Source: Coptis chinensis (taxonomy: Eukaryota > Streptophyta > Magnoliopsida > Ranunculales > Ranunculaceae). Taken from it: 64,000 nt of DNA. Both the position numbers and the translations under genes were made by a program. The notes under the pieces were generated by a model. It saw only the letters and a program-made list of their open reading frames with translations, was not told the origin of the DNA and did not search any database. Location: assembly GCA_015680905.1 (NCBI GenBank), contig CM027384.1:77719501-77783500 (forward strand), in the 5' to 3' direction. Positions 1,797 to 46,500 of the stretch are shown here, in pieces; position 1 is the first letter of the stretch; every line of letters begins with the position of its first letter.

Positions 1797-1805
1797 TGTG
1801 TGTTT

Positions 1806-2772
1806 CATTCATCCACGACTTGGCATTTCCAACACTAAGTCTTTGTGCATGAACTCCCAACAGATGTGAATTTGAATCTCTGACACAACACCAGCCCCTC
1901 CATTTCCTGGATTCCCTAGCGCAGCACCGTCTGTGTTTGCTTTAACAATCCTTATGTCAGGAGGGATCCATGAAACTGTTCTAATTCTCTGTGCAGGTCT
2001 TGGTCTTCCCTTGAGCTTCAACTGTGAAAGAAGGTTCAGGTCATCCACATTGTTAAGCACTGTTCCAGAAGCCAACATTCCAGTTGCACTTATTCCTTTC
2101 AAGACTTTCTTTCTTATAAAAGATAGGTCCAACTTGTAGTCTTTGAAGAATATTTTATTTCTGGTCTTCCACACTTGCACCATGAGATATAATGATGCTG
2201 CATTCCATAGTTGTTTCCTAATTGGACTGAGAGACTTGCATGCCCTCATGACTGTATTGAGATCAATGATTGTTAGGTGAGCTTTGAACATGTCAAAAAG
2301 CCAATACCATAGTTGCACTGTAGTGTCACATTCTCATAGCAGGTGGTGAGCACTCTCTTCTGCATTCTCACACATTCTACATCTTGATACTAAGTGGATA
2401 CCCTTCTTTCTGATTCTATCATCAGTTGGGACTGCTCTTTGAAGTAGCTTCCATGTCAGACCTGCAATTCTAGGGTGAATATGTTTTACCCACACCCATC
2501 GATGCCAGTTAACCTTATTCTCCTTCTTCCTGATCACCTCAAAAGCGCTTATAACTGTAAGAGATCTATCCTGGGATGGTTTCCATATTCTTATGTCTTT
2601 CTCCTCACCTGAAGGAAGGTGCAGAGCATGTACATCTATGCCCGATCTTGTAAGAACTTCAGAAACACTTGCTGGAATGTTCCAATTATTGTTAACAATT
2701 ATGTCGGAGACCTTAGCCCTGAATTCCCTCCAATTAACTCCTTGTACCTTGTCCACTACAGATACTCCTAAA
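1806..2772 (-). mobile_element. LINE (non-LTR) retrotransposon remnant: zinc-binding RT C-terminus plus RNase H start
   Basis: One minus-strand reading frame, interrupted by a single TGA (near 2331-2333), encodes the C-terminal part of a plant LINE polyprotein. The zf-RVT region is at about 2330-2560 (IAGLTWKLLQRAVPTDDRI, then CRMCENAEESAHHLL, with the Cys-Cys-His pattern). The beginning of an RNase H-like domain is at about 1860-1960 (KANTDGAALGNPGNGGAG). Both ends are truncated and no poly(A) tail or target duplication was seen. It stops about 10 bp upstream of the start codon of the CTL pseudogene, in the same orientation, so it has replaced or invaded that gene's 5' flank. Confidence 0.8.
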
Positions 2773-2779
2773 TCCTAAT

Positions 2780-3443
2780 AAAAATCCTCAGATAATATAA
2801 CTCCATAATTGTGGAGAGTGAAATCACACATCGGAAAAATTACCTGCACCAAATAATCCAAGATCTACATCCCTGTGTAATTTCGAAGACTGCACCTTCA
2901 GAGGATTATTTTATTGAATCTTGCAACTTCGAAATTGGAGATTTGCTACATATATTTCGTAGAGAATATAATATTCACAAAGGGTAAACATTTCAACACC
3001 ATAAAGGGAGGATTTTAGCTGTTTAACATCGAAACAATTTATTCTCAATTATTTCTATGACGTAAGTCAAAGAGTCACAAACGCATGAAAGCCAAAGGGT
3101 CACAAACAGGAATCCAAGAAGGCATTGATAAATAGAGCTTCAATGAGCATTAACAGAAATTTAACGAGCCAAAGTTTTGATCTGGGCCAAAATCAGTAAA
3201 ATAACTTAATGAAAACTGATCAAAAGCATACAAGGCAGGTTAAGATGCAATGAATAAGTTGCATCACACAAATCTAGCGCAAAGTAAAACACTAGTTCAA
3301 AACAGCAGAATCGAAGAAGAGCACCTTGAACTTACACCAGAACTTGCAAAGTTGCACCAGAAACATAACAATTCTTCAAAGTCAACTACCAGCCAAAACA
3401 ATGTTCTTCATTTTTTCCAACATCCTCAGAACATCTTGGAAAC
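2780..3443. other. Gene-free spacer downstream of the first STIPL1-like gene
   Basis: I see no coding region, RNA gene or repeat here. The right part probably contains the 3' UTR of the adjoining minus-strand gene. Confidence 0.5.
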
Positions 3444-6020
3444 TCAGTGTTTCTTTGGTTTAGATTTATAATGCATCTCCTTCAATCGTTCAAGGGTCAC
3501 TACTGACCAACCATCCAGACTTTGAGCAAAGATTTTATTATTCAAAGTGTCGATGTATATGCTTATGTTACCAAAGCCATATATCTGTTGACCATTATGT
3601 GTTCTCCCAGGCTTAGGCTTGAAAAACAACTCATTCTCCTGTGCAAATGCTTCGATGACTTCTTTCAGACTCATAACTGGCATAGCAAACAATTCATCAA
3701 TGTTAACAGCACCGCTAGCGCTAGCTTGTTGTTGAGCATAGGCAGCTGCCTTTTGCTGTGCTTCAAACTGCCTTTTCTCTGTCACCCTCAGGTAGCTAAT
3801 ATTTTCCCTCGCCCCAGGTTGTACTACTTCCATACCGTCAACAGCCTGGTTCATCATCTCAAGCCCCACATCTAGATGATATCGGACGCGTTCATTAGCA
3901 AGCAGTTCCTGCGGTAATAGTCCTTTCCAACCCAAGTACCACTGCGTTACCTCCCCAAAATTAGGGTTTGCACACAGCCAATGATACAAAACTTGTTGCC
4001 ACTTGGGGAAAAAACTCACCTCCAACATCGTGACCATGTGGTGAATTGGAATAGCTGACACCCAGGACATTACCCAAGAAAACTGATCTAGCTTTTGATT
4101 TGAAGGGTTAACCTCGAAATTTTGCAGTTCACTTGCCAACTTTGGAACTATATATTGAACAATGAGACGTTCCCAACTGGCTGTATCAAACACAGTCTTC
4201 CATGGAGATAATATAGTATAAGCAGAGCCATCGCTAGGGTGCCAATTAAGAAGAGCCTTTCCCAGTTTAATCTGAATCGTTCTGTAGAATGTTTCCAACT
4301 TTTGACCTAACAATGGTAACCATGGATGGACCCATACATGAATTGCAATATTCTCCCTGAGTGGATCCCAGGTATCCACAGCTTGTGACAGCTTTAGCAA
4401 GACCACATTGTCCAAAATGTTCTGAAGCACTGAAGCAGGTAGAAGCTCCTCCCATAATTCCAAAAATTTGAGCATTGGTTCAGGGTCCCTGGGATTCCAT
4501 GAATTGGTTCCAGATATCCACACAGCAGGCAAAACAACCTCCATTGCCAATTGGGAAAAAGGTGATGAGACATCTTCAAAGGGACTATCATCCTCTAACA
4601 AGTTCTTCCACAATGCCATGAGTTTTAACCCATGTGAAGGATGCTGTAGAGGGTCCCAACTCTGAAATACTTTAATAAACAGAGGCAAACCAAGAGAACA
4701 TGCAACACAAGGCAAGTTGCAGAGCTTGAACTCATCCATGTACCTCCTCTGCAAGTCACCAAATGACTGAAGTAGTGAGTCTATTGTCAGCGTACCTAAC
4801 GTGTTCTCCTGCTCTATCCGTTCGAGCACTTGAGCTATGTCTTGCATATTATGCAACTGCTTCTTCTGCCTATCAGCATCCTTTTGAAGCTTCTCCCTTT
4901 CTTTCTGCAAACTCACCGCATTCTCTCTCTCATACCTTAAATCTCTATCCAACTTCTGGATATCAAGTTCTGCTAATTCTACAATCAACTTGATATTGTG
5001 TTGAAGCTCAGGCAAGTAAGCATCATTCTCCCTCAAATTCTCTTCCGCATTTAGGTTCTCTAAATTAGTCAAAACCCGAACCTGTGGTCCTCTCATATCA
5101 AGAACAGTCTGAACAAATTCAACACTATTCTCTTCCTTACTAGCCAGTAGCTCTTCAGCCGTAACATATTTTTCTTTCTTCTTCCTTCGGTTCTGCTTCG
5201 ACCACAGTTTCTCTTTCGGCTGACTCACATTAAGCAAAACTTTGGGCTTCTCCTCTTCCACAGGCTCTTGCAACACAGGCATAGTCTTCGCCTCTTTATA
5301 ATCCTTAAAACCCATTCCCATATTCTTCGGTCGTAACTTAACTTCAATCGGAGCTACAATACCTTGCTGATTCTTCCCCAATCCACCTCCTTTATACCCC
5401 ATCTTCTCCATCATTCTACTAGCAATCCCCTTTGTATGTTTCTCAAACTCCCCAACATTAGCATCAACATTATTTTCTCTCTTCCCCACCGCCACTTTCT
5501 TCCCCACCTTCGATTTCTCCCTTTCCCTATCTCTCTCTCGGCGCATCGCCCCTTCCTTTATCTTCCTCCCAAAAGCAGTAGGCAGAAAACTCTCCTCCTC
5601 CTCCTCACCATCCCCTTCCACCAAAACATCATTCCGAAACGATTTAGATCCAAACCCTAAACCCAATCCAGAATTTAAGCCCAGCCCATTAAAGGCATGA
5701 ACCTCAGCATCCCCATCCTCGTTTTGACTAGTTTGAATATTTCTATCAATTTCTTGATTAGGCATAACAGTACCAGTAGAAACAAAATTAACAGGTTTAG
5801 TAAGATCATACTTTTTCGAAGACATATCCTTTTTCCTTCTTTTTCTACTGCTGTTGTCGTCGTCGTCATCTGAAGAATCAGTGACGTCAGCGAAGACACC
5901 AAAGAGAACGTCGTCTTTAGTTTGGTGGCGTTTTTTGTCCTTGCGTTGTTTTTTGTAATAGTATTCACCACCTATCCATTGCCCTTCTTCGTAATCATTC
6001 TCCATTCCGAAATTCTCCAT
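3444..6020 (-). CDS. STIPL1: STIPL1/NTR1-like G-patch spliceosome disassembly factor (TFIP11/tuftelin-interacting protein family), copy 1
   Basis: An uninterrupted 858-residue ORF, close to the length I recall for Arabidopsis STIPL1 (about 850). The family acts in the nucleus with the Prp43-type helicase to release introns and dismantle spliceosomes. Visible features: the N-terminal tuftelin-interacting motif (residues about 9-25, YEEGQWIGGEYYY); an acidic and basic stretch (50-66, DDDDD then RKRRKKD) that could be a nuclear signal; Gly-Leu repeats (111-124); the G-patch (about 194-240, GIASRMMEKMGYKGGGLGKN); a coiled-coil-rich segment (about 355-410); a long GCFC-type domain (about 400-690) and a conserved C-terminus (IYGFGNISIYIDTLNNKIF). 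There is no intron. The start is fixed by the conserved N-terminus; a second Met at residue 6 also exists. It is paired with a paralogue at 22616-25060. Nested transposons begin 111 bp upstream. Confidence 0.93.
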   Translation of the reverse strand: MENFGMENDYEEGQWIGGEYYYKKQRKDKKRHQTKDDVLFGVFADVTDSSDDDDDNSSRKRRKKDMSSKKYDLTKPVNFVSTGTVMPNQEIDRNIQTSQNEDGDAEVHAFNGLGLNSGLGLGFGSKSFRNDVLVEGDGEEEEESFLPTAFGRKIKEGAMRRERDREREKSKVGKKVAVGKRENNVDANVGEFEKHTKGIASRMMEKMGYKGGGLGKNQQGIVAPIEVKLRPKNMGMGFKDYKEAKTMPVLQEPVEEEKPKVLLNVSQPKEKLWSKQNRRKKKEKYVTAEELLASKEENSVEFVQTVLDMRGPQVRVLTNLENLNAEENLRENDAYLPELQHNIKLIVELAELDIQKLDRDLRYERENAVSLQKEREKLQKDADRQKKQLHNMQDIAQVLERIEQENTLGTLTIDSLLQSFGDLQRRYMDEFKLCNLPCVACSLGLPLFIKVFQSWDPLQHPSHGLKLMALWKNLLEDDSPFEDVSSPFSQLAMEVVLPAVWISGTNSWNPRDPEPMLKFLELWEELLPASVLQNILDNVVLLKLSQAVDTWDPLRENIAIHVWVHPWLPLLGQKLETFYRTIQIKLGKALLNWHPSDGSAYTILSPWKTVFDTASWERLIVQYIVPKLASELQNFEVNPSNQKLDQFSWVMSWVSAIPIHHMVTMLEVSFFPKWQQVLYHWLCANPNFGEVTQWYLGWKGLLPQELLANERVRYHLDVGLEMMNQAVDGMEVVQPGARENISYLRVTEKRQFEAQQKAAAYAQQQASASGAVNIDELFAMPVMSLKEVIEAFAQENELFFKPKPGRTHNGQQIYGFGNISIYIDTLNNKIFAQSLDGWSVVTLERLKEMHYKSKPKKH

Positions 6021-6130
6021 TTTTTTACTTGCTCTCTTTCTCTCTCGTTCGTTTTCGGCTCAACTTCTTCGGATCACTTGGGCCTCATGGACTTTAAATA
6101 TTCTGGGCCTCAAAGTTGTCCGACATTTGA
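6021..6130 (-). promoter_or_regulatory. Residual proximal promoter / 5' UTR of STIPL1-like copy 1
   Basis: Only about 110 bp separates the start codon from the poly(A) tail of an inserted LINE. The stretch contains two TGGGCC site-II-type boxes (6079-6084 and 6104-6109, plus strand), which are common in housekeeping plant promoters, and a TATTTAAA-like TATA candidate on the minus strand (6093-6100). A CT-rich run (6029-6046) would fall in the 5' leader. Promoter activity is inferred from these motifs only. Confidence 0.45.
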
Positions 6131-6395: not shown

Positions 6396-8311
6396 AGTAA
6401 ATAGTCTTCGTCTTTCATTTTCTCTATAGCTTACTAGCTGCTCCTCCAAAAGATGAGCAGATGAAGAACAAATGACCGCCTCTCTCTTTGGTAACAAGAA
6501 TATTTTTCAGCAAATCCTCGTATCCCTTATCTTTGTAATATTTTCCAGTTTCAAATTTGTTTTGAAGCATTGATTTACGGGGTTGAAATATTTAGATTTG
6601 TAGAGTTCTTCCACAGCCCCAAATTTGTTTGACAAAATGTCTCACTAGCCTTGTTTTTTTTCGTACTTATGTCTCACTGGTTCATTTTAAGAAAATTATT
6701 TCTTGTTTTTTCAATTTATATTTAATGTTCGTATTAGATGGATGAAAGAGAATTTGCTATTGAACATAATTCAGTTGGTTCAGAAGAAGTTGTCCACGAG
6801 GAGTTGATTCCAAAACTGGGAATGTTCTTTGACAGTGTGAAAGAGGCGTATGACTGCTATAATGAATATGCAAGATTGGTTGGGTTTAGCATTAAGATAA
6901 AAAGGACAAACAAACATCGTGGAGATCATACTAAAATAGTGCTTCAAACTCTTTGTTGTTCTTGTGAAAGCGCGTACACAAAGGTCAAGACTCCTACAAA
7001 AAAGAGAGAAGAGAGACGATTCGGTTGTATGGCCAAATTTCAGACTACGCTTAACAAAGAAGGAAAATATGTGTTGTCCAAGCTCATAGTGGAACACACT
7101 CATGGCCTTGTCCCGCCATCAAATTCCTATTTGCTTAGGTCTCATAGAGGTGTCAAAGATTCTCAAGCTGGAATTATGAAAAAAATGCTAGATTCTGGAC
7201 TCAAACCAGCAGATATCCATTATTACTTTTGTTCAGAAGCTGGAGGAGCTGAGAACTTGAACTTCATCAAATCTGATTGTAACAATTTACTGCAAAGGGT
7301 GCGTGAAGAGATACGAAAAAAGGGTGATGCAGTTTGTCTTCTTGATTTTTTCAAGCAAAAGAAACAAGAAAACAAACATTTCTTTTACTCTTTTTTGACT
7401 AACAAAGAATGTGAGCTTCGTTGTGTCTTCTTTTGTGATGCATTATCTAGGCGAGATTATGGGTTGTTTGGTGACATGATTTGCTTTGATACAACTTTTC
7501 GAACAAATAACTATAATTTGGTTTGTGCACCGATAGTTGGCATTAACAACCATGGGCAAACTGTAATATTTGGGTGTGGCTTCTTAGAAGGTGAAACAAG
7601 TGATGCTGTTATTTGGATGTTTAGAACGTTTTTAGAAGTTATGGGAGGAAAGCAACCAAAGACTATATTTACTAATCAGTCCCAGGCTATTGCAAAAGCC
7701 ATCAATGTAGTATTTCCAGAAGCACGTTATGCTTGTGGCATATCTTAAATAATGGAGCAAAGCATTTGGGGAAACTAATTGGTGAATTTCCATGTTTTCC
7801 ACAGCGATTTAAGGACTGCATATACAATCCAGAGACAAAGGAAGAATTTGAAGAGAGTTGGAAAATGTTGCTTAAGGATTATGGTTTGGAAAGGAATGAC
7901 TGGTTGATTGCATTGTATAAATTGCGCCACAAGTGGGCACAAGTGCATGCCCGTGATTTTTTTTGTGCGGGTATAACTACAACGCAAAGGAGTGAAAGCA
8001 TTAATAGGTTTTTGAAGAATTATTTTACAAGTAGTACCATTCTTCGAGAGTTTGTGGACCAATACAACAAAGCAATGGCCAGTCGACGTCAAAGAGGAAA
8101 GGAGGCTAATAATAAGACACAACAAACCATACCGAACTTGTGGTCCAAGTGGTTGGTAGAATCTGAAGCATCAAAGGTTTATACAAGAACTATGTTTCAT
8201 TTTTTTCAAGATGAGTACAAAAAAACTCTTGATCTTCATTTGACATTGGAGAAGGAAGAGGATACCATTCATACTTATGTAGTTACAGAAATGGGAAGGA
8301 AAAGGAGTTGT

Positions 8312-16179: not shown

Positions 16180-17667
16180 GTGATAGATACATGAGCATCT
16201 TATCACATCACACCGCACATGGGATTCTTCACTACCTACAACTATAGTGAATATGGTGAAGTGAAGATAGGCAACAGTGGAGTTTCGAAGATTGCAGGCA
16301 TTGGGGATGTTCATATAGAAACCAATGTCGGATACACCTTGACACTCAAGGATGTAAGACATGTGCCTGACATTCGGCTAAGCATGATTTCCGCTGGAAA
16401 GTTAGATGATGATGGCTTTGTAAACTCGTTTGGCAACGGGGTATGGAAACTGAGCAGAGGTTCCATTGTAGCATCCAAAGGGAAGAAAACTTGCTCTTTT
16501 TACAAGACACAGGCTAGTTTGTGTAAAGAAGAAGTAAATGCGGCAGAAGAAGAAGCTTTCTCCAAACTATGGCACAAGAGACTGTGTCATATGGGCGAAA
16601 AAGGCATGGAAGTTCTTGCCAAGCAAAAGGCCTTGCCAGACATTAAAGGTAAGCATTTAAATAAATGTACTCATTGTTTGGTAGGAAAGCAACACAAGGT
16701 GTCTTTCCAAAGATTCCCGTCTCACAGAAAGGACAATGTCCTTGAGCTAGTTCACACTGACCTATGTGATCATATGAAAGTAAAGTCCCACGGGGGAGCT
16801 TTGTACTTCTTGACTCTCATTGATGATGCGTCAAGAAAGATATGGGCATATAGTCTGAAGACCAAGGATGAAGTACTTGGTGTGTTCAAAACTTTCCATA
16901 GCATGGTGGAAAGAGAGACAGAGAAGCCTTTGAAGTGTATTCACTCAGATAATGAGGGTGAGTACATAGGGCCATTTGAAGAGTATTGCAAGAGTCATGG
17001 GATTCGTCATGAGGAGACCGCTCCCAAGACACCACAACATAATGGAATAGCTGACAGAATGAATCGGACCATTGTAAAGAGGATGAGATGCATGTTGTCT
17101 CACTCTAAGTTACCTAGAAGTTACTGGGTAGAAGCAATGTGTATAGCCATGCATGTGATCAACATATCGCTGTCAAAGCCTCTGAATAGTGATTATCCAG
17201 AGAGATTATGGTCAGGCAGAGATGTAGATTATGGATACTTAAGAGTATTTGGGTGCAGGGCATTTGTTCATATTCCCAAGGATGAGAGATCCAAGCTTGA
17301 TGACAAAGCCAAGCAGTGCATTTTTCTGGGTTATGGGGATGAGAAGTTTGGCTACAAACTCTATGATCCTATTAACAAGAAAGTAATCCGAAGTCGAGAT
17401 ATTGTGTTCTTGGAAGACCAAACCATAGCAGACTTTGAGGAGGGTGAGAAGCTACAAGCTTTCACTAATGATCTTGTTGATTCAGGACCAGAAGTTCATA
17501 CTGTAGAACGTGCAGAAGGCATTGAGAATGCAGAGAACCATGGGTTTGAAGCTCATGATGATGATCCTATTGCTCATGATGGGATAAAACCTATTGATAT
17601 AGAAGATGGAGATGAAGTGCATGAACCACCACCTGAGCAAGCAGAAGTGCATCTACCTGAGCCATAA
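16180..17667 (+). pseudogene. Copia protease remnant, GAG-pre-integrase and integrase
   Basis: The protease active site is broken at about 16182-16200 (a TGA falls in the Asp-Thr-Gly region). The open frame from 16219 (482 codons) includes the GAG-pre-integrase (WHKRLCHMGEKG), His-Cys motifs, and the integrase core with the expected acidic residues in VHTDLCDHM and HSDNEGEYIG. The distal Copia block is VFGCRAFVHIPKDERSKLDD. An acidic linker follows up to TAA 17665-17667. It would insert the cDNA; the neighbouring frames show it is no longer functional. Confidence 0.85.
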
Positions 17668-17708
17668 GTAGATGGGATAAGGAGGTCAGACAGAGAGAGA
17701 CAAGCTTC

Positions 17709-19227
17709 ATGAGGTATCCACCACATACGTATGCTTTACTATCTGATGGTGGAGAACCTATGTACTATCAAGAGGCTCTTGAAGGTACAAACAAAGAGAA
17801 GTGGTTGAAGACCATGCATGATGAGATGGATTCTTTGCATAAGAATCACACTTATGAGTTAGTTGAGAAATCGAAAGGAAGAAAAATTCTCAAGAATGAG
17901 TGGATCTACAAAGTCAAACATGAGGAAAATAATCCACACCCAAGGCACAAAGCTCGCCTTGTTATGAAGGGATTCAGTCAAAGGAAAGAGATTTACTTTG
18001 ATGAAATTTTCTCTCCTGTAGTGAAGATGACTTCTATCCGGGTGGTATTGGGTCTAACCACAAGTACTAGATGTTAAGACAACTTTTCTTCATGGAGGCC
18101 TTGAAGAAGATGTCTACATGGACCAGCCAGAGGGGTTTGAAGTCAAAGGCAAAGAGCACCTAGTATGCAAGCTGATAAAAAGCTTGTTTGGATTAAAGCA
18201 AGCATCGAGACAGTGGTACATAAAGTTTGATTCCTTTATGGTGAAGCAAGGATACAAGAAGTCTGCTTCCGATCATTGTGTGTTTGTTCAGAAATTTTCA
18301 GATGGGGATTTCATAGTGCTCTTGTTGTATGTGGATGATATGTTCATAGTTGGCCCAAACATCAACAAGATATCCAAGCTGAAGAAAGACTTGAGTAAGT
18401 CTTTTGAGATGAATGATTTGGGTCAAGCAAAGCATATACTTGGGATGTGGATCACTCATGATAGAAAGAGTGGAAAGTTATGGCTTTCTCAAGAAAGCTA
18501 CATTGAGAAGGTATTGAAGATATTTAACATGGATCAAGCGAAGCCAGCCAGTTGTTCACTTGGTAGCCAGTTCCGCATGACCAAAGAGATATGTCCAAAG
18601 GGGTGAGCATGAGCAGAGTCAGATGGAAAAGATTTCTTATGCATCCGCAGTGGGCAGCTTGATGTATGTAATGGTGTGTACAAGACCGGATATTGCTTTC
18701 GCCGTTGGTGTTGTAAGCCAATTTCTGTCAAATCCGGGTAAAAAGTATTAGCAAGGTGTTAAGTGGATATTGAGATATCTCAAAGGCACTTCCAAATTGT
18801 GTTTGTGTTTTGGTGGAAGTAAACCCTTACTTGAAGGCTACACTAATGCAGACATGGCAGGTGATGTTAACTCGATGAAGTCCACCTCCGGTTATCTAGT
18901 TACTTTTGCAGGGGGAGCAGTTTCTTGACAATCTAAGTTACAAAAGTGTGTTGCCCTCTCCACTACAGAAGCTGAGTATATTGCAACCATTGAGTGTTGC
19001 AAAAAGATATTATGGATGAAGAGGTTCTTCGATGAACTAGGGCTAAAGCAAAAATAGTTTGTAGTTCTATGTGACAGTCAGAGCGCCATTCATTTGAGCA
19101 AGAATTCGAGTTTTCATTCTAGATCCAAGCACATACATGTGCGTCATCATTGGATTAGAGAAGTACTCGAAGACAAGCATTTGTGTATTGAGAAGATCCA
19201 TACCGACAAGAATAGGTGGATATGATG
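17709..19227 (+). pseudogene. Copia reverse transcriptase and RNase H, interrupted
   Basis: RT is split into two frames: 17709-18077 (WLKTMHDEMDSLHKNHTYEL, then KARLVMKGFSQR) and 18118-18606 (MDQPEGFEV, LLYVDDMFIVG, with the catalytic YVDD). The RNase H part follows at about 18600-19227 (YASAVGSLMYVMVCTRPDIA; ALSTTEAEYIA) with several stop codons. The order and spacing are typical of Copia. Confidence 0.85.
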
Positions 19228-22615: not shown

Positions 22616-25060
22616 TTAGTGTTGCAATGGACCGGAACAATAATGCATCTCCTTCAATAGTTCAAGAGTTACTGCTGACCAACATTCCTTAGCTTGTGCA
22701 AAAATTTTATAATTTAAAGTGTCTATGTATACGCTTATGTTACCAAAGCCATATATCTGAAAACCATTATGTGTTCTGCCGGGCTTCGGCATAAAGAGCA
22801 ACTCATTCTTCTGTGCAAAATCCTCAATGGCTTCTTTCAAACTCATAACAGGCATATCACCCGTACCATCCATGTTAACTTCTCCGCCCATGTTATCTTC
22901 TTGTTGAGCATAGTCTGCTGCCTTATTGTGAGTGTCAAACTTCCTTTTCTCAGTCACCTTAGGGTAGCCAATATTTTCCACGGCACCAGGATGTACCACC
23001 TCCTTATCCTCAACAGCCTGTTCTATCATATCAAGCCCTACATTTATATGATACCCAACACGAGCATTAGCCAGTAGTTCCTCCGCCAGAAGTCCTTTCC
23101 AGCCCAAAAACCACTGGCTGACCTCTCCAAATTTAGGCTTCGAACTTAACCACTGGAACAAAACTTGTTGCCACTTGGGGAAAAAATTGACCTCCAGCAT
23201 TGCAACCATGTGGTTAACTGGAACCACAGACGCCCAGGACATTACCCAAGAAAACGGAGCTACCTCTTGAATTGAGGGCATAACCTGAAACTCTTGCAGT
23301 GTGCTTGCCAATTTCTGAACTACATATCGCTCAATGAGATGTTCCCAACTGGCTGGACCAAACACAGTTTTCCATGGAGAAATTTTAGCATACGACAATC
23401 TAGCGTAAGCAAACACGTCAGTTGGCTTCAAGTAAGCAGACACAACACTTTCGCTGGGATTCTTCAGCCCACGAATAGCCGTTCCCAGTTTAAACAGAAC
23501 GGTTCTGTACAAACTCTCCAGCTTTTTACCTAATAACGGTATCCATGGATGAACCCACAGATGAATTGAGACATCCTCTTTGAGTGGATCACACGTCTCC
23601 ACAGCACACAATAACTTCGGCATGACCACATTATCTACAATGGTCTCAAGCACTGTAACAGGCAGTAGCATCTCCCATGATTCCAAAAGTTTGAGCATTG
23701 GTTCAGGGTCCCTAGGATTCCATGTATTAGTCCCAGATATTCTAATTGCAGGGAGAAAGACCTTCATTACCAATTGAGTAAAAGGTGATGGTGCGTCAAA
23801 ATGACTATCTTCCTCTAACAAGTTCTTCCAGGATGACATGACTTTCACCCCATGTAAAGGATGCTGTAGAGGATCCCATCCTTGAAACACTCCAATAAGC
23901 AAAGGCAATCCCAAAGCACTTGCAACACAAGCCAAATTGCAGAGCTTGTACTCATCCACGTGTCTCCTCCGCAAGTCACCAAATGACTCAAGTAGTGAGT
24001 CTATTGTTAGCATACCTAACGAGTTCTCCTGCTCTATCCGTTCAACCACCTGAGCTATGTCTAGCAAACGATCCAGCTGCTTCCTCTGCATATCCGAATT
24101 CCTTTGAAGCTTCTCCTTTTCTTTTTGTAAATACACCACATGGGCTCTCTCATTCCTTGAATCTCTATCCAACTTCTGGATATCAAATTCAGCTAGATCG
24201 ACAATCAACTTGATATTGTGCTGAAGCTCAGGCAGGTAGGTATCACTATCCTTCAACTTCTCCCCAGTGTGCAAGTTCTCCAAATTTGTCAGAACCCGAA
24301 CCTGTGGTCCTCTCATATCAATAACTGTCTGAACAATGTCAACACTTTTCTCTTCCTTACTAGCCAGTAGCACTTCAGACATGACGTACATCTCCTTCTT
24401 CTTCCGGCGGTTTTGCTTCGACCAGAGTTTTTCTTTTGACTGACTCACATCAAGCAAAACCTTGGGCATCTCCTCGACATACTCTTTCGATGCAGGCATT
24501 GATTTCATCTCTTTATAATCCTTAAAACCCATTCCCATATTCTTCGGTCGCAACTTCACTTCAATCGGAGCTACAATACCTTGCTGATTCTTCCCCAATC
24601 CACCTCCTTTATACCCCATCTTATATAATATTTTACTCCCAATCCCCTTTGTATGCTTCTCAAACACCCCCACATCACCTGCATCAACATTCTCCCTCTT
24701 CCCCACCTTCGATTTCTCTGGCCTCACTGCCCCTTCCTTAATCTTCCTCCCAAAGTCTATAGGAAGAAAACTGGCATCTTCGTCCTTGGACGAATTTGAG
24801 CCTAACCCTAATCCACAATTTAAACCAAGCCCATTACATTCACCAATCTTAACCTCTTTTCTACTATCATCTGCATTATTACAATCAGTTTCATGATTAG
24901 GCATAACAGTAGTAGAAGAAACAAAATTAACAGGTTTAGTAAAATCATACTTATTTGTAGACACATCCTTTTTTCTTCTTTTCCTGCTGCTGCTTTCATC
25001 AGTACCGTCTGCGAAAACACCAAAGTTGTAATTTTTCTGCATGTGCTGGAATTTAGTCAT
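22616..25060 (-). CDS. STIPL1/NTR1-like G-patch protein, divergent copy 2
   Basis: An intact 814-codon intronless ORF paralogous to 3444-6020 and in the same orientation. It retains the basic patch (RKRRKKDV, residues about 26-33), the Gly-Leu repeat, the G-patch (about 135-180, MGYKGGGLGKNQQGIVAP), the coiled-coil segment, the GCFC-type domain and the C-terminus (IYGFGNISVYIDTLNYKIF). Two changes stand out. The first roughly 35 residues of copy 1, with the YEEGQWIGGEYYY tuftelin-interacting motif, are absent, so the protein opens MTKFQHMQKNYNFGVFADG. And copy 1's DGSAYTILSPWKTVF corresponds here to a longer stretch containing VFAYARLSYAKISPWKTVF. The start is the first in-frame Met. The long intact frame argues for at least recent constraint, but function with the helicase partner may be altered. 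Confidence 0.88.
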   Translation of the reverse strand: MTKFQHMQKNYNFGVFADGTDESSSRKRRKKDVSTNKYDFTKPVNFVSSTTVMPNHETDCNNADDSRKEVKIGECNGLGLNCGLGLGSNSSKDEDASFLPIDFGRKIKEGAVRPEKSKVGKRENVDAGDVGVFEKHTKGIGSKILYKMGYKGGGLGKNQQGIVAPIEVKLRPKNMGMGFKDYKEMKSMPASKEYVEEMPKVLLDVSQSKEKLWSKQNRRKKKEMYVMSEVLLASKEEKSVDIVQTVIDMRGPQVRVLTNLENLHTGEKLKDSDTYLPELQHNIKLIVDLAEFDIQKLDRDSRNERAHVVYLQKEKEKLQRNSDMQRKQLDRLLDIAQVVERIEQENSLGMLTIDSLLESFGDLRRRHVDEYKLCNLACVASALGLPLLIGVFQGWDPLQHPLHGVKVMSSWKNLLEEDSHFDAPSPFTQLVMKVFLPAIRISGTNTWNPRDPEPMLKLLESWEMLLPVTVLETIVDNVVMPKLLCAVETCDPLKEDVSIHLWVHPWIPLLGKKLESLYRTVLFKLGTAIRGLKNPSESVVSAYLKPTDVFAYARLSYAKISPWKTVFGPASWEHLIERYVVQKLASTLQEFQVMPSIQEVAPFSWVMSWASVVPVNHMVAMLEVNFFPKWQQVLFQWLSSKPKFGEVSQWFLGWKGLLAEELLANARVGYHINVGLDMIEQAVEDKEVVHPGAVENIGYPKVTEKRKFDTHNKAADYAQQEDNMGGEVNMDGTGDMPVMSLKEAIEDFAQKNELLFMPKPGRTHNGFQIYGFGNISVYIDTLNYKIFAQAKECWSAVTLELLKEMHYCSGPLQH

Positions 25061-25322
25061 GGTTTTTGAGAACCTCTATTTCCCTTTGGTTTTCCTGCAA
25101 AAATATTTTGTGTGGGAAACCTTTTTATAGGTTCACGTTCACCTTTCCTATTTCAGTTGGTTTTCTAATTTGGAAATAAAAAACGCACGTTTGTTCGGCT
25201 ACGAGGAAAGATAGAATTGTCCTTAATTTTATTCCAAAGGGAGACAAATAAAACGCTTGCGCTCAGAATATATATAAAAACTAGATTTTTGGACCGGTCA
25301 ACGAAAATGGACCGTTTTTATA

Positions 25323-35068: not shown

Positions 35069-35197
35069 TTAGAGCATTTGAAATGCAGGTGAAAGTCCCT
35101 TATTCACCGCGACCTCATCACTTATTCACCCCCTTTTCACCAAAACGGTGAAAAACAAGGTGAAGCTGTGCAATGCAAAGGTGAATAATATATCTCG

Positions 35198-35258
35198 GAC
35201 GGGATGTTAGATTCCGTCTTGAGGTTTTTGATATGAGACGGAATGTAACATCCCGTCT
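35198..35258. repeat. Left subterminal hairpin of the Harbinger element
   Basis: A 22-23-bp inverted repeat (arms 35198-35219 and 35236-35258, GACGGGATGTTAGATTCCGT and its complement) around a 16-bp loop, 126 bp from the left end. Confidence 0.9.
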
Positions 35259-35369
35259 GATGACTCAATATGAACAGACGCGAACAGGCTCCATTTTCAC
35301 TTCCTTTCCAGCCAAAATTGCGATTTTCAGCCTCCATTAACAACCTTTTGACACAAACTTCTATTCATA

Positions 35370-37800
35370 ATGACTTCTCCACCCCCCAATGCATCCCCAC
35401 CAACCTCACCACATGAAGAGCATTCCCGATGGTTTGGAAATGTTAAAATTTCCAAAAAAAATGGGCAAAAAGGATCGTCGTAGAGAACGCGTAATGTGGG
35501 CGAGGAGGACGAAATTGAACTTGGGTTCAAGTTCAATTTTCTACCGCGTTATGAAATCGAGGAACACTCACCATTAGCGTCAACATCGGTCCGACACGTA
35601 GCAAATCAAGTGGCGGAGTCTCAAGTAAGTTTTTGATTTTTTTTTTATGTTAATTATTATTATTTATGTTAGTTTATATCAAGTTTGTTGTTGTGTAATT
35701 AGTTTGAATTTGTCGCATTGTTTTAGAAAAAAAATAGTTGTAATTATATCATATTGCGTGTTGGTTGAATGTAGGAAGTACACCTATGGAAAGTGCGTTG
35801 TGCACTTTCAAATGTTGTGTCGTGGTGGCGTTGTATGAAATAAAAAATGGATCCTAATTTTGTCACGGTTACCGATATTATATCCGCCACACCATTTGGG
35901 AACTTTTTGAATTCTAATTTGGGACAAAATGATTAGGCGTTGTTGTTTGGGATAGTTGAGCGGTGGTGGCAAACTACCCACACATTCCATTTCCCATGGG
36001 GTGAGCTTAAGATTACCCCTCTTGATTTCACAATGCTCAAGGGTATCCCAATTGGTTATGGAGATGCCGTTCTTTTTTATGAAACTTTAGAGGTTTTTAC
36101 TACGGCGATGAGTTTCTTTGAAGGTTTTGATTTGGTTAAAGATGATGAGCAAGATGGGTTTTTGAGATTATCAGCTGAGCAGTTTAAGGGAGGAGCTATA
36201 AATATGAGTTGGTTTACTTCGAGATATTTGAATAGACTCAATGAGAAGCCGAAAGACTATCATATTGGTGAGGAGTCGATCCACGAGTATGTACGTGCCT
36301 TCCTCTTCTACTTTGTTGGTGTGGTATTATTTGAATATACTGATAGTTATTTACGTATCGGATGGATGGCCGCTGTCTCGGATGTAGAGAGGATGTGGGA
36401 TTATGATAGGGGTCAATCCATCTTGGCATACCTTTACACCGGCTAGACCTTTGATTAAGGCGAAAGCCGCTAAAAGGCAATTTGTGCGACTTTGTTTGGA
36501 TTATACCGGTAAGTATTATTTATTAAGTTATTGTTTTATTTCATTTATTTATCTAATTATTAATGTTGACATGTTTATATATATATATATTGATATTGTA
36601 TTTTATCTATTGATGACAGTATTGGTGGTACGAACATTTTTGTGTGATGCATCCTGTGTTGAAGAGGTTGGAAGAGGATGAGACTCATGACTTGATTCCA
36701 CATATTCAAGCATGGGGGCTTCATCATAGGCAGAGGGGGTATGGGAACCTATCACATAATATTCATAACACTCGTCAGCAGATTGAGCTTTTAAGAGCTA
36801 CCCAAATTGAGTGGCAACCCTGGGCCGAGTCCTTCATCTTTCAAACCCCTTATGCGGATATTCCAGATGTTCCAGAGAACACTGAGTAATGTAGACTATC
36901 ATATATGTGTCATAGAGCAAGGTTTCTTTCTCAGCGGCGAATGATACTTATAGGGTCAGTCACTGCATGGTACCTTGGGGACAGATGTTGGCGGCAAGTA
37001 TCTGGAGAGATTGTTATACCTTACCCACCACCCATAGATATGACGTGACCCTCGATATTCTTCCCCGCTGTTCTTTCACACTATAGAGCAAACCCAAATG
37101 AGTGGCCAGACGCATCAGCTTTCATTTTAACGGGCGACTATAACTTATATTGGAAGAGGGTTGGTCGAGGTCTCTTGCTAGGTGCATTATACCGGGGCAC
37201 CAATTTTGAAGGGGTTACTTCTGGAGCATTGAGGCCCGACATTCATTTCCCAGGAGGAGTGGAGTTGCCACAGTCACAGCTCAGGGTGTTTCATGATATT
37301 CAGATGTCGCAAAGAACTCCACAAATATTTGATGATGATGACCTTTGGCACTGGAGCATGATTACTTCTCAGGGGCAAGATATGAGAATACCTATTCCAC
37401 CAGTAGATGCCGCAGTGGTAGCAATTTGTCAGTACAGTTTGAGCATTTATCCGAGGTTAGTATGATTTGAATTTATTCATGATTTGTTATTATTAGTATT
37501 CACTATAACCCCTAACATGCATTTGTTTTGTTAAACAGGATGAAGTAAGGTCGGAGCTCCTTAACTACAACTCTCTCAGTTATGCCATGCGTGAGTCCTT
37601 CATAGAGTCCTCTCGTCGCAGTTTTGAGTACTTACAAGAAGAGCGAAATTGAACTTTGCAGCTTCAGAGACATGTGCAAGAGTTGGAGAATGGTGGAAGT
37701 GGAGTACCTCAAGCTCAACCTCAACTAGAGAGGCGACAACGACGTGGGGGGGAGAGCTCTTCGACCGAGCCTTCTCGTAGGGGGAGGAGATCTCAGTAGA
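35370..37800 (+). pseudogene. Plant mobile domain (PMD, MAIN/MAIL1-like) gene carried inside the Harbinger element
   Basis: Exon 1 starts at ATG 35370, shifts in an A-run near 35453-35460, and ends at a GTAAG donor after EEDEIELGFKFNFLPRYEIE (about 35623). The main exon (35776 to about 36510) carries the PMD core: LFGIVERWWQTTHTFHFPWG, then FTMLKGIPIGY, and a late DYDRGQSILAYLY. The next exons encode WWYEHFCVMHPVLKRLEEDE (from about 36619), NPNEWPDASAFILTGDYNLYW (in part, near 37090-37150) and a basic C-terminus ending at TAG 37798-37800. At least four in-frame stops and one or two shifts make it a pseudogene. PMD proteins include MAIN and MAIL1, which act in silencing and genome stability, and many PMD genes ride on transposons. 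Here the host is a Harbinger element. Confidence 0.8.
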
Positions 37801-38275
37801 TATTTTTTTATAGTTTGTAATAATTGTGCGCCATTACTTGTCTTATGGCGTTTGGGATTGTTGTTTGTAATAAATTTTTGATTAGCAGGTTTTTCTTTGA
37901 TGAGTTTTGGATATGAATATGTCATTAAACAAAGGAGGTTATGTCCAATTTTTTTTAGAAATTATAAGTTAGTTTTTTTATCGAGTTTCTGTGTTAGACT
38001 TGGGTGTTGTTCATGATTGTTGTTTGTCTTATTTATTATTTTCAAAGTATATTAGCAGGTTTTGGATATGAATATGTCAATAAAACAAATGAGGTTATGG
38101 CAAAAAAAAAAATTAAAAATTTATAAGTTCGTGACGTTCCAAAATTTCACATTTCCAAAAATTTCACATTCGTTTCACTCATTTCCTGTCTTTGTTGAAA
38201 CATAAAATTTTGATGGAATATCACTCATTTTTGCAGGTGGTTTGGTTTTGACAGGAATAGTGTATAGGGATACCT

Positions 38276-38298
38276 AGATGGAATGTAACATCCCGTCT
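38276..38298. repeat. Internal direct copy of a subterminal hairpin arm
   Basis: 22 of 23 bases match the right arm of the left hairpin (35236-35258). It sits between the PMD cargo and the transposase gene, 283 bp upstream of the transposase start codon. Confidence 0.9.
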
Positions 38299-38580
38299 AG
38301 TTTTTTAGTCCTTCTCCCTGCACCTTTTACTATTCCAAACATTGGAATTATGGATGAGGATGGTGGCCCATTGGAATTATTGAGGATACATTTGGATACA
38401 ATGTGTTGTCACTTGGAGAGTGAACAAAAATCTGATAAAATGTGTTTTCAATTGGTAAGTGGACCAAAATCGAAGTATCACATGTGACCTTACCTTTCAT
38501 ATTTCGTTTTACTCTTCTTTCTTTTAGATCACAAACAAACAGCCATCTTCTTCCCCACAACCAAGCTAAAAATAGAAAAA

Positions 38581-40036
38581 ATGTCTAGAGAAGAAAGAAT
38601 TGTATATAACCAAAGGTTATGGGGAGGATCTAGTAGTAATAGTTCGTCTTCTGGTTTCACAGGGTCGTTTTCTGGTACTTCTGCTGAAAATGACTACATG
38701 GAAAGAGTAAGAGATGAGCATAATGATATGATGAGGCGAAGGAGGAGGAGGAGGAGGAGGTTGCAGTTATTATCCACTGCTGGGGCATTAATGACTCAAG
38801 CAGCCATTAAAATTGAAGATGTGGATACAAACAAACGCGGTGGATCTGTGAAGGGTAGAGAGTACACGTTTAGAGATGGTGGTGATTTCAGTAAACAAAA
38901 GATAATGAGGGATTACTTCACAACACCTTGTAGGTAGCCTCCTCATAAGTTTAGACGAAGGTACATGATGACAAGAGAGCTTTTTATGTATATGCTGCAT
39001 ACTGTTGCATCATTCGACGATTACTTTAAAGACAAGGTGGATGGATTGGGTCGGCAAGCAATTTCTGGGTTACAGAAGGGACTAGCTGCAGTTGCACAAT
39101 TAGCAACTGGTTGTTCTTCTGATTCAACGGATGAGTATTTACAAATTGGAGATTCCACAACAAATGTATCTATGAAGCATTGGTGCAAGGCAATTATCAC
39201 GGCGTTTGAGGAAGAGTACTTGAGACGACCAACTGAGGCAGACACTGCTAGGATATTAGCTGAAAATGCGGCAAGGGGTTTTCCAGGAATGCTTGGATCA
39301 ATCGACTGTATGCACTGGGTGTGGAAGAATTGTCCAAGTGGATGGGCTAGAACACATGTAGGGTACAAGAAAGAACCAACTTTGATACTTGAAGCCGTTG
39401 CAGACAAACATTGTTGGATCTGGCATTGCTTCTTCGGCTTACCAGGTTCGCATAATGACATTAACGTGCTTCATCATTCTCATGTTTTTGAATCATTAGA
39501 GCAAGGTGAGGCTCCTGCTGTTGCATTTAATGTGAATGGTAATGACTATGATATGGGATATTATCTTGCTAATGGTATTTACCCAAAATGGACACATTTG
39601 TTCAAGCCACTAATTATCCAAGAAATAAGCATGAAAAGATCTTTATTCAACGTCAAGAAGCTGCAAGAAAGGATGTTGAAAGGACGTTTGGAGTTTTGCA
39701 GGCACGATGGCAGTTCTTGGAGACATAATGAAGGCATACATTATAATGCATAATATGATTGTTGAGAATGAATGTGAAAGTGGAGTTTGGAATTGGAAAG
39801 GTCAGAGGAAAGAAACAATACATGCGCTCTTTCAGGAAGATGATGGTTTTCATTTTGTCAATCAGATGATTGAAGCAAGGAATAAGATAAAAAATGAAGT
39901 TACACATACTAATCTTCAAAAGGACTTAGTTGAACATGTTTTTAATTGGACTGGCATTGAAGAAACAGCAGATCCGGTACCAATTTATGATCCAAATTGG
40001 TCGGATCCAGATGAGGGAGAAGGAGACAAAAATTAA
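38581..40036 (+). pseudogene. PIF/Harbinger DDE transposase, inactivated
   Basis: Start at 38581 (MSREERIVYNQRLWG), a Ser-rich and poly-Arg N-terminus, an in-frame TAG at 38936-38938, then the body from 38941 (FRRRYMMTRELFMYMLHTVA). Catalytic Asp residues are present in GMLGSIDCMHWVWKNCP and LPGSHNDINVL. A frameshift near 39612 throws the C-terminal third out of frame, but the expected block with the catalytic Glu (KDVERTFGVLQARW) is legible in another frame at about 39670-39715. About 50 codons usually found after this block are missing. The end (MKAYIIMHNMIVENECESG to TAA at 40034-40036) fits the family. Confidence 0.88.
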
Positions 40037-40419
40037 AATGGAAATAAAAGTGTATTTCCTATGTATTTCCTAACGGGAACTATTAAGTTCCAACGTATTT
40101 CCTATGTATTTCCTATGTAATTCCTATAAGTTCTTATGTGTTTAATGAGTTGTGTTTTAATGAACTATATTACAATGTATTTTAATTTTATTGGTAATTG
40201 TATTTCTATGAAAATAATTATATTGGACAGAACATACATAGTGCATTAATTAAAAAAAAACAGTTAGATAAAAATACATAGTTCATTAATTAAAAATACA
40301 ATAAAATTAAAATACATAGTGCATTAATTAAAAAGACAGTGAAATTAAAATACATAATGCATTAATTAAAATACATAGTGCTTTAATTAAAATAAAATAC
40401 TAGATATTACATAAGCTTA
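40037..40419. other. AT-rich gap between the convergent Harbinger genes
   Basis: Contains a short repeated motif based on AAAATACATAGTGCATTAATT (40250-40395, about five imperfect copies) and TATTTCCTATG repeats (40055-40125). It probably holds the 3' UTRs. Confidence 0.65.
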
Positions 40420-41557
40420 GTTAGAGCTAGAACCACCTCTAACCCTTGCCCATTCAAAGACGTATTTTTAGCTTATTGTTGCTTTCGATTATAAAAGCGA
40501 TATCGGGATGGAGGACACTTGTATTGGTCGCTAAAATCTTAGCTTCATATTGCATCTTTTGAAGCCGATTTTTTCCAATTGAACCTGATTTTTTCTGCTT
40601 GAATCCGATTTTTTCTTCTCTTGCCATCATAGTTCTTTGACCATATGCAAGTTCCCTTTCCCTAAGTTCTAAGCATTTTTGTGTTTCATTTGCATCCTGT
40701 GAAAATGTATCCTCTAAACGTGTAAAGTAACCCTCCAACATACCAACTGATTTTTCTTGGTTCCTTTTGGACTTGGCTTTCTTCGATCCAAGAGGACGCT
40801 CCATTTCTTTTGGTCGCTCTATTTCTTGAAAACCCTCCAATTCAACTCCACCAACACTTGGTGAATTAGAAGTTGAATCTTCACCATCATTTTTGCGACC
40901 TTTTCCCTTTGTGGGGCGGCTTGACCTTGCCTCAAAAACGTTACTTCACTTTGGATTATCCTTGAGTATAACGTAACAATGATCAAGTGAAAAAACCGAT
41001 TTTTCTTGTAGTTGGTACGTCATCCTTGCCTCGGACAACTAAAAAATAAAATGGTGGTAATTAGACTAAAATAATCACTAGGACTAAGATAATTAAACTA
41101 AAATAATAATTAGACTAAGATAATAATTAGACTAAGACTAAAATGGAAATAATAAATACACTAAGATAATTAGACTAAGACGGAAATAAGATAAGACTAA
41201 GATAATCAATAAATTCCAAATTGACAACGTTGTAATTACCCGGCTTTGTATTGTTGTACCACTTGCATGTCGAGCCTCCACCACATTCACAATTGCAACA
41301 AACTTGTTCATCATTTTTGAAATATATTTTCACCTACCGCTAATTGAATCAGAAGACCTATCCGACCCACGTGCTTGATTGAACTCGTTTGTTACACGAT
41401 TCCAAAATCCTTTTGCATTTTGGAAAGCACCAACAATGGAGTCTTCACTAATTTTTATCCAAGCAAGACATAGAGCTTGATCATCGGACATGCTAAAGTG
41501 AGTTTTCGCTTTTGCTTGAGTGCTACCACTTGCTTGAGATGCTTGAGTTGATGCCAT
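40420..41557 (-). pseudogene. Harbinger ORF1: Myb/SANT-like DNA-binding protein with NAM-type C-terminus
   Basis: Start ATG at 41557-41555. The Myb/SANT-like domain (FSMSDDQALCLAWIKISEDS, then FWNRVTNEFNQ) is followed after a TGA by KYISKMMNKFVAIVNVVEAR. An intron follows (donor near 41240, acceptor near 41040). Exon 2 carries VFSLDHCYVILKDNPK, a stop, then the NAM-associated block RPLGSKKAKSKRNQE and a Lys/Glu-rich coiled-coil. In PIF elements this protein binds the ends and helps import the transposase. Both stops fall where a Trp is expected. Confidence 0.82.
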
Positions 41558-41733
41558 TTGATATTTGGTTTTTTTTAAGAACTGATTTTAAAGAAGAAGA
41601 AATATGATATCTGATTGTTGGAAGTGTGAGTTGAAATGAAACAAATGTTATATATATACCAAAGTTTTTTATTTTGACCGTTTTTTACCGTTCTGACTTT
41701 TTGGCCGTTGGTAAACTAGTCGTTAGGACTCCG

Positions 41734-41795
41734 GACGAGATGTTGGATTCCGTCTAGTGAGTTTTGTAATCCAGACGGAATCCAACATCCCGTCC
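41734..41795. repeat. Right subterminal hairpin of the Harbinger element
   Basis: Arms at 41734-41755 and 41773-41795 (GACGAGATGTTGGATTCCGT and complement), 162 bp from the right end, mirroring the left hairpin. Confidence 0.9.
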
Positions 41796-41960
41796 GAAGT
41801 TAACAAGTCAGTGACTATCTCGGTGGAAGGTTTCACCTTGTTTTGAACTGGGGAAAATAGTCACTAAGTTTTTCACCCTGCATTGCACAGCGCTTTTGGA
41901 CCCAACTAGGTGAAAAAAGTCACAAACCCCTCTTATTTCCCTGCATTGCAAATGCTCTTA

Positions 41961-44401: not shown

Positions 44402-44595
44402 AAACTCTTGGTAGCTCCTTTCTTTCGAAGGTTGAATACCTTAACTGCAACAGTTGTTTCATCCTGCTTCAGTTTTCAGCTAAACACGGCCAAAACTCTT
44501 GGTAGCTATCCCTTCTTTCGAACATCCGAGTTGAATACCTTAACTGCAACAGTTGTTTCATCCTGCTTCAGTTTTCCTTTATAAACACGGCCAAA
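44402..44595. repeat. Tandem duplication of about 90-105 bp within the RLK kinase exon
   Basis: Two copies of AACTCTTGGTAGCT followed by the segment GTTGAATACCTTAACTGCAA and the flanking TTCATCCTGCTTCAG. This corresponds to the VAVKVFN/ETTVAVK part of the kinase N-lobe, present twice. Confidence 0.88.
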
Positions 44596-46500
44596 ACTAC
44601 CCGAACCAATAAAGTTGGTTGGAGAAAATCCATCAGTCGCTTGAAAAAGATCTCGGTAAGAAACCATAATACGTCGATCCCTCTTTGATGTTGAAGAGCT
44701 TTCAAGTTTTGGCTTTCTTTTCCAGTAAGCAATGAGAAAAGAAAATGCCAGAAGGAAACAGAAAGCCAAACTGATTGATATTGCTAGTTTGAGAGCAAGA
44801 GACATTCCGCGTTTTGTGGAATCATTGACTTGGCATGCAGGCAATCTCAGTTCCTGGATACCCCCACAGAGCTTGGTATTTCCTGCTACAGAAAAAGCAC
44901 TTGCATTTCCGAAGATCCCTTCGGTTGGCACCTCACCTTCTAGTTCATTGAATGATAAATTTAATTTTTCCATTGATGAAAACGTTTGTAAAAATTTAGG
45001 AATTGGGCCTGATAATTTGTTGCTCGATAGATCCAAGTATTGAATACCTTTTAAAGAGCTCAAAGACAGTGGAATTGATTCTTCGAAGAAGTTATTGTGC
45101 AGATCAAGGTGTTCCAAACTCAAACAGTTACTAAGAGTACTTGGTAACTTACCAGTTAACTTATTGCTCGAAATATCCATGTACTCAAGATTATGCAGGT
45201 TCCCTACATCTGAAGGCAGGGAACCAGCAAAGGAGTTCTGAGAGAGGTCGAGGACCATTGATAAAGAGGACATGCCAATAACTTCCTTGGGTATGGCACC
45301 ATTTAAATTATTTTGAGAAAGGTTCAGAAGTTGCAAATTTCTGTAACTACCAATACTTGGAGGAATGCTTCCATTCAATCTGTTAGCTCCAAGATAAAAA
45401 TCTGTCAACTCAGTGATGTTTGCTAGGGAAGATGGGATCAGTCCAGTCAATTTATTTTCATTAAGATACAGCACCTGCAACTGTTGAAGTTTGCCGATTG
45501 ACAAGGGAATGCTACCTGTTAGAAGATTATATTCCAGTCCCAATGCTCTCAAATTGACAAGGTTCCCAAACCCTTCCGGAATAGCTCTAGATATTCGATT
45601 TCTTCCAAGACACAATCTGATGAGCTGGGTTGAGAGGTTGGCAATAGAGTTGGGAAAAGCACCTCCAAAATTATTTTTATCTACACATAGTATCTGCAGA
45701 TTACTACAGTTGGTCAAAGAAGTAAGAAAATCTAAATCACCATCCCTTTCATTTCCAAGATTGTTGACACCCATGTTTACCCAATTCAGACTTTGTAGAC
45801 CTCCAAAAGTATTTGGGACTTGTCCCTCAAAACTGTTAAAAGATATATCAAAGAGTTGAAGTTTAGAAGCATTGGCTAATGAAACTGGAATGAGTCCTGA
45901 AAATTGATTTCCAGGGACTCCGAATTTTTCGACATTAGGAAGAGTGATGAATATGTCTGGTGGAAGATTACCATACAGTTGGTTATAGCCAATTGAGAAA
46001 AGGTTGATAGATGAGCTGTTGTATAGTGCTAAAGGGACCTTAGACAGTAAATTAACAGCAAACAAAAAGAATGCTATGTCGGGAGGTTGAGCAAGAGTCT
46101 CTGGAATACTTCCCTCTAATTTGTTGTCTCCTATGGAGATCATTTGAAGAGAAGAAAGGTTCCCCAGAGAAGGTGGGATTTCTCCTGTTAGATTATTCAA
46201 GTCGAGAACTAATGTCACCAGCTTTGATTAGGAACCAAGAGCTGACGGAATTCTCCCTGTGAGCTTATTTCTAGCAAAACGTATGATCCTTAGATCAGAG
46301 CAACGGGTCAGGTTGACTGGAATCTCACCTCCAAAACTGTTGTTACTCATATTTAGATGTTGGAGACGAAACAACTGACCGATTTCCTGTGGGATTTCAC
46401 CGTATAATCTGTTGTTGATAAGGTTGATGAACGTAAGAAAGGTAAGGTTACCAATATGAGGCGATATTGATCCAAGCAAACTCTGTCCAGGAAGGTTCAA

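Follow-up and report, generated by a model that had tools for sequence, protein, structure and literature searches.

The stretch of Coptis chinensis DNA analyzed here (assembly GCA_015680905.1, contig CM027384.1, positions 77,719,501 to 77,783,500), whose 64,000 nucleotides are referred to as the window, contains a whole but decayed PIF/Harbinger transposon at window positions 35072-41957. With a probability of about 0.95, we consider this element to be one dead copy of a PIF/Harbinger lineage with three genes, namely a plant mobile domain (PMD) gene, a DDE transposase gene and a second gene of the NAM-associated/Myb-like type. Such a three-gene lineage is the best explanation overall and in our opinion a very probable one, the mechanism proposed below for PMD being less certain. 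PMD looks like a built-in part of the element rather than an accidental passenger.

The initial annotation, made from the letters of the window, described an element bounded by inverted repeats and TTA duplications, and its coordinates proved to be exact. The target-site duplication TTA was read in the sequence at 35069-35071 and again at 41958-41960. Just inside it, pattern search located the left terminal inverted repeat GAGCATTTGAAATGCAGG (35072-35089, + strand) and the right one GAGCATTTGCAATGCAGG (41940-41957, - strand), which are 18 bp long with 17 identical positions. With up to 3 mismatches allowed, the repeat pattern had just two matches in the 64-kb window, both with 0 mismatches; in the chance control at the same tolerance the mean was 0.25 and two matches were reached in 2 of 100 shuffles. 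The similarity between the two ends extends inward to hairpins at 35195-35260 and 41728-41800. A 22-base pattern from the left end occurred 40 times in exact form in the genome, and its reversed control did not occur.

As had also been annotated, the left half of the element is occupied by a multi-exon PMD gene in the orientation of the transposase (+ strand). Its four exons were placed at 35370-35624 (borders by eye and reading frame), 35775-36508, 36620-37459 and 37539-37799, exons 2 and 3 forming the domain core. The profile PF10536 matched the reading frame of exon 2 with an E-value of 2.1e-15 (57.2 bits, against a Pfam cut-off of 34.9) and that of exon 3 with 1.5e-5, which is under the cut-off. 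The PMD gene of the window carries seven in-frame stops and one frameshift, near 36444 in exon 2. Across copies the majority frame is open, except that exons 2 and 3 each contain a majority stop. The fold predicted for P0004, a PMD relative, together with 17 other sequences was a poor model (mean predicted local distance difference test, pLDDT, of 46.3) that had no match among PDB folds at an E-value of 0.001 or less, and no PDB sequence match was found either. A fusion protein of PMD and transposase was sought and not found: of the 12 matches to a chimeric query, 11 had the transposase domain without PMD and one (P0003) had PMD without transposase.

Both canonical Harbinger genes are present, as had been proposed. 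The transposase gene (38581-40036, + strand) was recognized by PF04827 (E-value 2.5e-55, above cut-off), DDE_Tnp_4 remaining below its own cut-off (2.8e-4). It is broken by a stop at 38935 and by frame breaks near 39610 and 39722. The second gene lies on the - strand at 40454-41557, in two exons at about 41557-41217 and 41037-40454, and contains two stops. Its NAM-associated domain (PF14303) exceeded the cut-off on the read-through translation (E-value 1.7e-10), a single frame falling below it. All three genes of the window copy are broken; across copies, the transposase (496 codons) and the second gene (113 + 194 codons) have open majority frames.

The 936-Mb assembly (116 contigs) was searched with both ends of the element. 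With the left end 40 places, the window included, were scored of 1210 first-look candidates, and with the right end 40 of 1201; the 20 best left-end relatives of the window copy were then fetched. The full set of parts, comprising left end, PMD exons 1-4, transposase, second gene and right end, was present in 12 of these 20 relatives (L009, L011, L012, L013, L015, L016, L020, L021, L022, L023, L026 and L028), two of which lack one terminal repeat. PMD exon 1 is kept at least in part in all 20 (in L025, 90 of its 255 bases), exon 2 in 16, and transposase sequence in 14 (partially in L018). Both terminal repeats were found in 12 of the fetched loci, and in 11 of these they are flanked by matching 3-bp duplications, ten of them TTA or TAA and one TCA; the duplication of L016 is mismatched. 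Of the 11 loci with matching duplications, nine are full copies. The right ends of L010, L018 and L023 are doubtful (3 mismatches), no right terminal repeat was found in L014, L017 and L019, and no left one in L021 and L027. L024 and L025, whose duplications match, have undergone internal deletion, and L010, L014, L017 and L027 are shortened or interrupted copies.

Genome-wide markers agree with the fetched set. At up to 2 mismatches, a 28-base PMD marker was found in 325 places and a transposase marker in 242, the reversed pattern giving 0 in both cases. Marker positions were compared for the 53 exact transposase places before C4:99.5 Mb among the matches listed, the other 47 being left out. 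An exact PMD marker lies upstream on the same strand within 25 kb of 32 of the 53, and in 26 of these 32 cases at 2.6-2.95 kb from the transposase marker; controls for such pairs gave 0 on the opposite strand and 1 downstream. Six further transposase markers have PMD evidence (three other PMD matches and three fetched PMD-bearing copies), which brings the total to 38 of 53. Crossing separate result lists, for which 41 of 150 transposase rows were hand-picked mainly by match length, yielded between 1 and 8 PMD-transposase pairs each time, most of them spaced as expected, and no opposite-strand pairs in the three list comparisons so controlled.

Twelve relatives with all parts, duplications at different sites and concordant markers therefore speak for a cargo-carrying Harbinger lineage rather than one accident, as the initial annotation had suggested. 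The outcome that it had named as contrary, PMD-less relatives and an independently nested PMD, was not seen. Besides the retention of exon 1 in every fetched relative, a copy with the transposase only 1.5 kb from the left end (L039, C7:93157607) proved to have lost element positions 633-3238 by an internal deletion beginning behind PMD exon 1, which is retained; moreover, a second Harbinger family has a related PMD in the corresponding place. That an independent PMD element was nested by chance in one Harbinger would fit the reported occurrence of PMD on Gypsy and on MULE elements as well (PMC5418596). For family 1, to which the window copy belongs, this possibility is rejected on the arrangement shared by 12 of 20 relatives and on the genome-wide markers; given that family 2 has PMD too, its probability is practically nil.

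This second, smaller family includes P0002 and comprises 16 places with 67-99% identity over residues about 75-226, P0002 matching C2 at 99% over residues 76-226. Its locus L036 is 7.9 kb long, has the ends GGGCATCTCCAATGGGGGG and CCCCCCATTGGAGATGCTC and is flanked by TAA on both sides. PMD, encoded on the forward strand, occupies its left part, with three pieces at 44, 43 and 28% identity (E-value 7.6e-82), and the second gene, on the reverse strand, its right part, with two pieces at 39 and 30% identity. The same order was observed in three of the four family-2 loci (L036, L037 and L038), the stretches of L037 and L038 starting inside the element, with left ends and duplications outside the stretches read; L035 holds PMD alone, followed by frames that by eye are retroelement-like. 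The NAM-associated domain is above cut-off in both families (E-value 5.4e-23 in L037), and Myb_DNA-bind_5, with an E-value of 0.011 that is below its cut-off, was seen in family 2 and not in family 1. By eye, the inverted repeats of the two families are alike and two PMD exon borders agree.

Kinship of the cargo PMD was examined in a tree of 35 rows, MAIN/MAIL sequences not being among them. A clade (100/99) unites the PMDs of both families with one further sequence and two from Thalictrum; it is followed by Ranunculus (93/88), Kingdonia (85/62), and then Papaver and Vaccinium. The cargo PMD is thereby placed among sequences of Ranunculales, and a further eight PMD loci of Coptis are separated from it (100/99). 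Owing to a long-branch warning from the program, the deeper order of the tree is unsure. The label 'MAIN-like' of the initial annotation found no support, as none of the matches was named as a MAIN/MAIL sequence. PMD sequences are very numerous in this genome (3774 first-look candidates for PF10536, 117 of them scored), and the eight best PF10536 loci (L001-L008) are unlike the Harbinger cargo PMD.

A 21-bp palindrome, GACGGNATGTNAVATNCCGTC, precedes each of the three genes. It occurs at five places in the window at up to 3 mismatches (chance mean 0.03), all of them inside the element: a pair at 35198 and 35237 (35198-35257) before the PMD gene, a central one at 38277-38297 before the transposase gene, and a pair at 41734 and 41774 (41734-41794) before the second gene. 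Measured to predicted gene starts, the left pair lies 172 and 133 bp before PMD, the central palindrome 304 bp before the transposase and the right pair past the second-gene start, at 177 and 217 bp. In the 20 fetched copies plus the window, surveyed at up to 4 mismatches, the PMD pair was present in 21 of 21, at 114-204 bp before the PMD start. The central palindrome was present in all 15 copies holding the region, and in 13 of them 267-371 bp before the transposase; L019 and L028 have insertions between the two. In 14 copies the right-hand palindromes are 154-265 bp away from where the second gene starts; in L020 the distance is greater, L017 lacks this gene start, and none was found at this tolerance in the stretches of L010, L014, L018, L019 and L027. 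The Myb-like protein of Harbinger3_DR is reported to bind a 9-bp motif near the ends (PMC9710019), and the ORF1 protein is believed to position the transposase there (PMC2836001). We infer that the palindrome is both the binding site of the Myb-like protein of the element and a promoter element.

Selection on the genes was approached by comparing variants private to one copy with those shared by at least two copies, using 20 copies for PMD exon 1 and 16 for the other exons. In PMD, 381 amino-acid, 40 stop and 120 silent changes are private, and 177 amino-acid, 20 stop and 116 silent changes are shared. Shared (older) variants are poorer in amino-acid changes (odds ratio 2.07, p 3.8e-6), and the signal resides in the domain-core exons 2 (p 9.2e-5) and 3 (p 4.6e-4). 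Copies differ pairwise by 7.4% on average in PMD and by 6.3% in transposase and second gene taken together. These data bear on the possibility that PMD is a captured gene hitch-hiking passively, without function for the element. It would agree with the frequent capture of host genes reported for plant DNA transposons (Pack-TYPE), with the dead state of the window copy, and with a pooled ratio of nonsynonymous to synonymous change (dN/dS) for PMD of 0.58, with exon 3 partly out of frame, which is near the 0.66 of the transposase and the 0.66 of the second gene. However, the depletion of shared amino-acid changes in the core exons and the retention of PMD in two divergent families argue against it, and we judge passive hitch-hiking improbable. 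Pack-TYPE elements are non-autonomous carriers of gene fragments that they captured and are without transposase; this family is not of that type, 12 of the 20 fetched copies having transposase together with PMD exons 1-4. In family 2 the pooled dN/dS values of 0.68 and 0.53 (single pairs from 0.16 to 1.74) mix sound and broken copies and decide nothing.

It must be noted that several points weigh against a built-in third gene under common control. The fetched copies, as the best left-end matches to the window copy, are a biased sample. For fifteen of the 53 transposase markers, the lists compared contained nothing that points to PMD, and an older PMD-less clade of the transposase family may exist. 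The one of these 15 that was read (L040, C4:70253464) retains exon 4 and the last part of exon 3 of PMD and is truncated upstream; both PMD-poor copies read (L039 and L040) are deletion or truncation derivatives, and no ancestral PMD-less form was found among the copies read. Transposase was not recognized in any of the four family-2 loci read, for which reason this family may be non-autonomous, or its transposase may have escaped recognition. Near its right end family 2 has a palindrome of its own, GTGTAAACTTTACAC, which is not that of family 1. Since its palindrome differs and its transposase was not recognized, a motif before all three genes is demonstrated in family 1 alone, where the survey across copies had no chance control of its own. 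Regarding selection, the variant test treats private changes as neutral, and no difference between private and shared changes appeared in PMD exons 1 (p 0.7) and 4 (p 1), in the transposase (p 0.83) or in the second gene (p 0.63). The PMD introns are 2.3-6.4% diverged, that is, below or level with the PMD exons (6.3-8.5%); plain selection on exons would not give this, and it therefore speaks against simple constraint. Base make-up and deamination may lie behind the low intron divergence.

Under the explanation that we prefer, a three-gene lineage with PMD as a working part, an intact copy would, like other Harbingers, produce transposase and Myb-like protein, with PMD in addition. The Myb-like protein would bind the palindrome and place the transposase at the ends, and it would also tune the three promoters. 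PMD would be co-expressed with the transposition proteins through the shared palindrome and might, as a chromatin factor, lift the silencing that the host imposes on the element, perhaps through imitation of the PMD proteins of the host. Counter-silencing is the likeliest role for PMD because host PMD proteins are reported to act in silencing (PMC5418596; PMC7156037) and because PMDs on MULEs have been proposed, as a speculation of the authors, to be anti-silencing tools (PMC5418596); we put its odds a little below even. Its main rival is that PMD is needed for transposition itself, through DNA binding, complex assembly or target choice. The palindrome common to PMD, transposase and second gene and the position of PMD beside the second gene in family 2 favor such a role, but other Harbingers are reported to need two proteins only (PMC2836001) and no structure match of the (poor) PMD model hints at a role on DNA, so that we find it rather unlikely. 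More tentatively, and with the balance leaning against it, PMD could be a permanent third gene under one cis-element, so that mobilization and counter-silencing are switched on together. If this were true, three kinds of mobile elements on the one hand and the MAIN/MAIL silencing system of the host on the other would have adopted the PMD domain.

Outside the transposon, the window contains two genes with TIP_N, G-patch and GCFC domains at 3447-6059 and 22619-25075 (both - strand), about 17 kb apart and probably a local duplication. A FAR1/MULE-transposase-type frame (6738-7745, + strand) adjoins the first of them, and Copia-type pol pieces with integrase and reverse transcriptase (16195-18603, + strand) lie between the two. 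A leucine-rich-repeat frame with the start of a kinase domain (44509-46227, - strand) is located about 2.5 kb to the right of the element.

PMDs on MULE and Gypsy elements were already known (PMC5418596; PMC9289625), as were Harbinger-type elements with SET or TET genes (PMC12730594). No report of a Harbinger with PMD was found in the literature searched (titles and the beginnings of abstracts), an earlier notice in subscription papers or in Repbase being possible, and the available text of PMC8616336 mentions no PMD on Harbinger. Plant PMD proteins have a part in silencing transposons, PMDs on mobile elements have so far been guessed to be counter-silencing tools, and a multi-copy PMD Harbinger offers a clean test object, to which a separate PMD gene preceded by the motif of the element itself makes this family well suited.

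With PIF/Harbinger elements such as Ping/Pong and Harbinger3_DR, the present element shares the 3-bp TTA/TAA duplication, short inverted repeats, a PF04827 DDE transposase and a separate second gene; what sets it apart is a third gene, the four-exon PMD gene of its left end, and the palindrome before all three genes. MULE and Ty3/Gypsy elements are likewise reported to be mobile elements with PMD (PMC5418596), where PMD is fused to the MULE transposase or located inside a retroelement; in the present element PMD stands as a gene of its own, and the superfamily is a different one. MAIN and MAIL1 (Arabidopsis PMD-C) have the PMD domain in common with the cargo PMD but are described as host genes acting in silencing (PMC5418596; PMC7156037). 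The anti-silencing protein of VANDAL (PMC8616336; PMC12730594) is proposed as a functional parallel, from a different element type and with a different protein. HarbingerS (SET histone methyltransferase, oomycetes) and PHISTA (TET, rust fungi) also carry, according to the available text of PMC12730594, an extra chromatin-type gene; their cargo and hosts are different, and PHISTA makes TA duplications and has a third protein without Myb/SANT domain. Alongside these SET and TET elements of other kingdoms, the PMD lineage suggests that the Harbinger superfamily repeatedly takes up chromatin-type genes.

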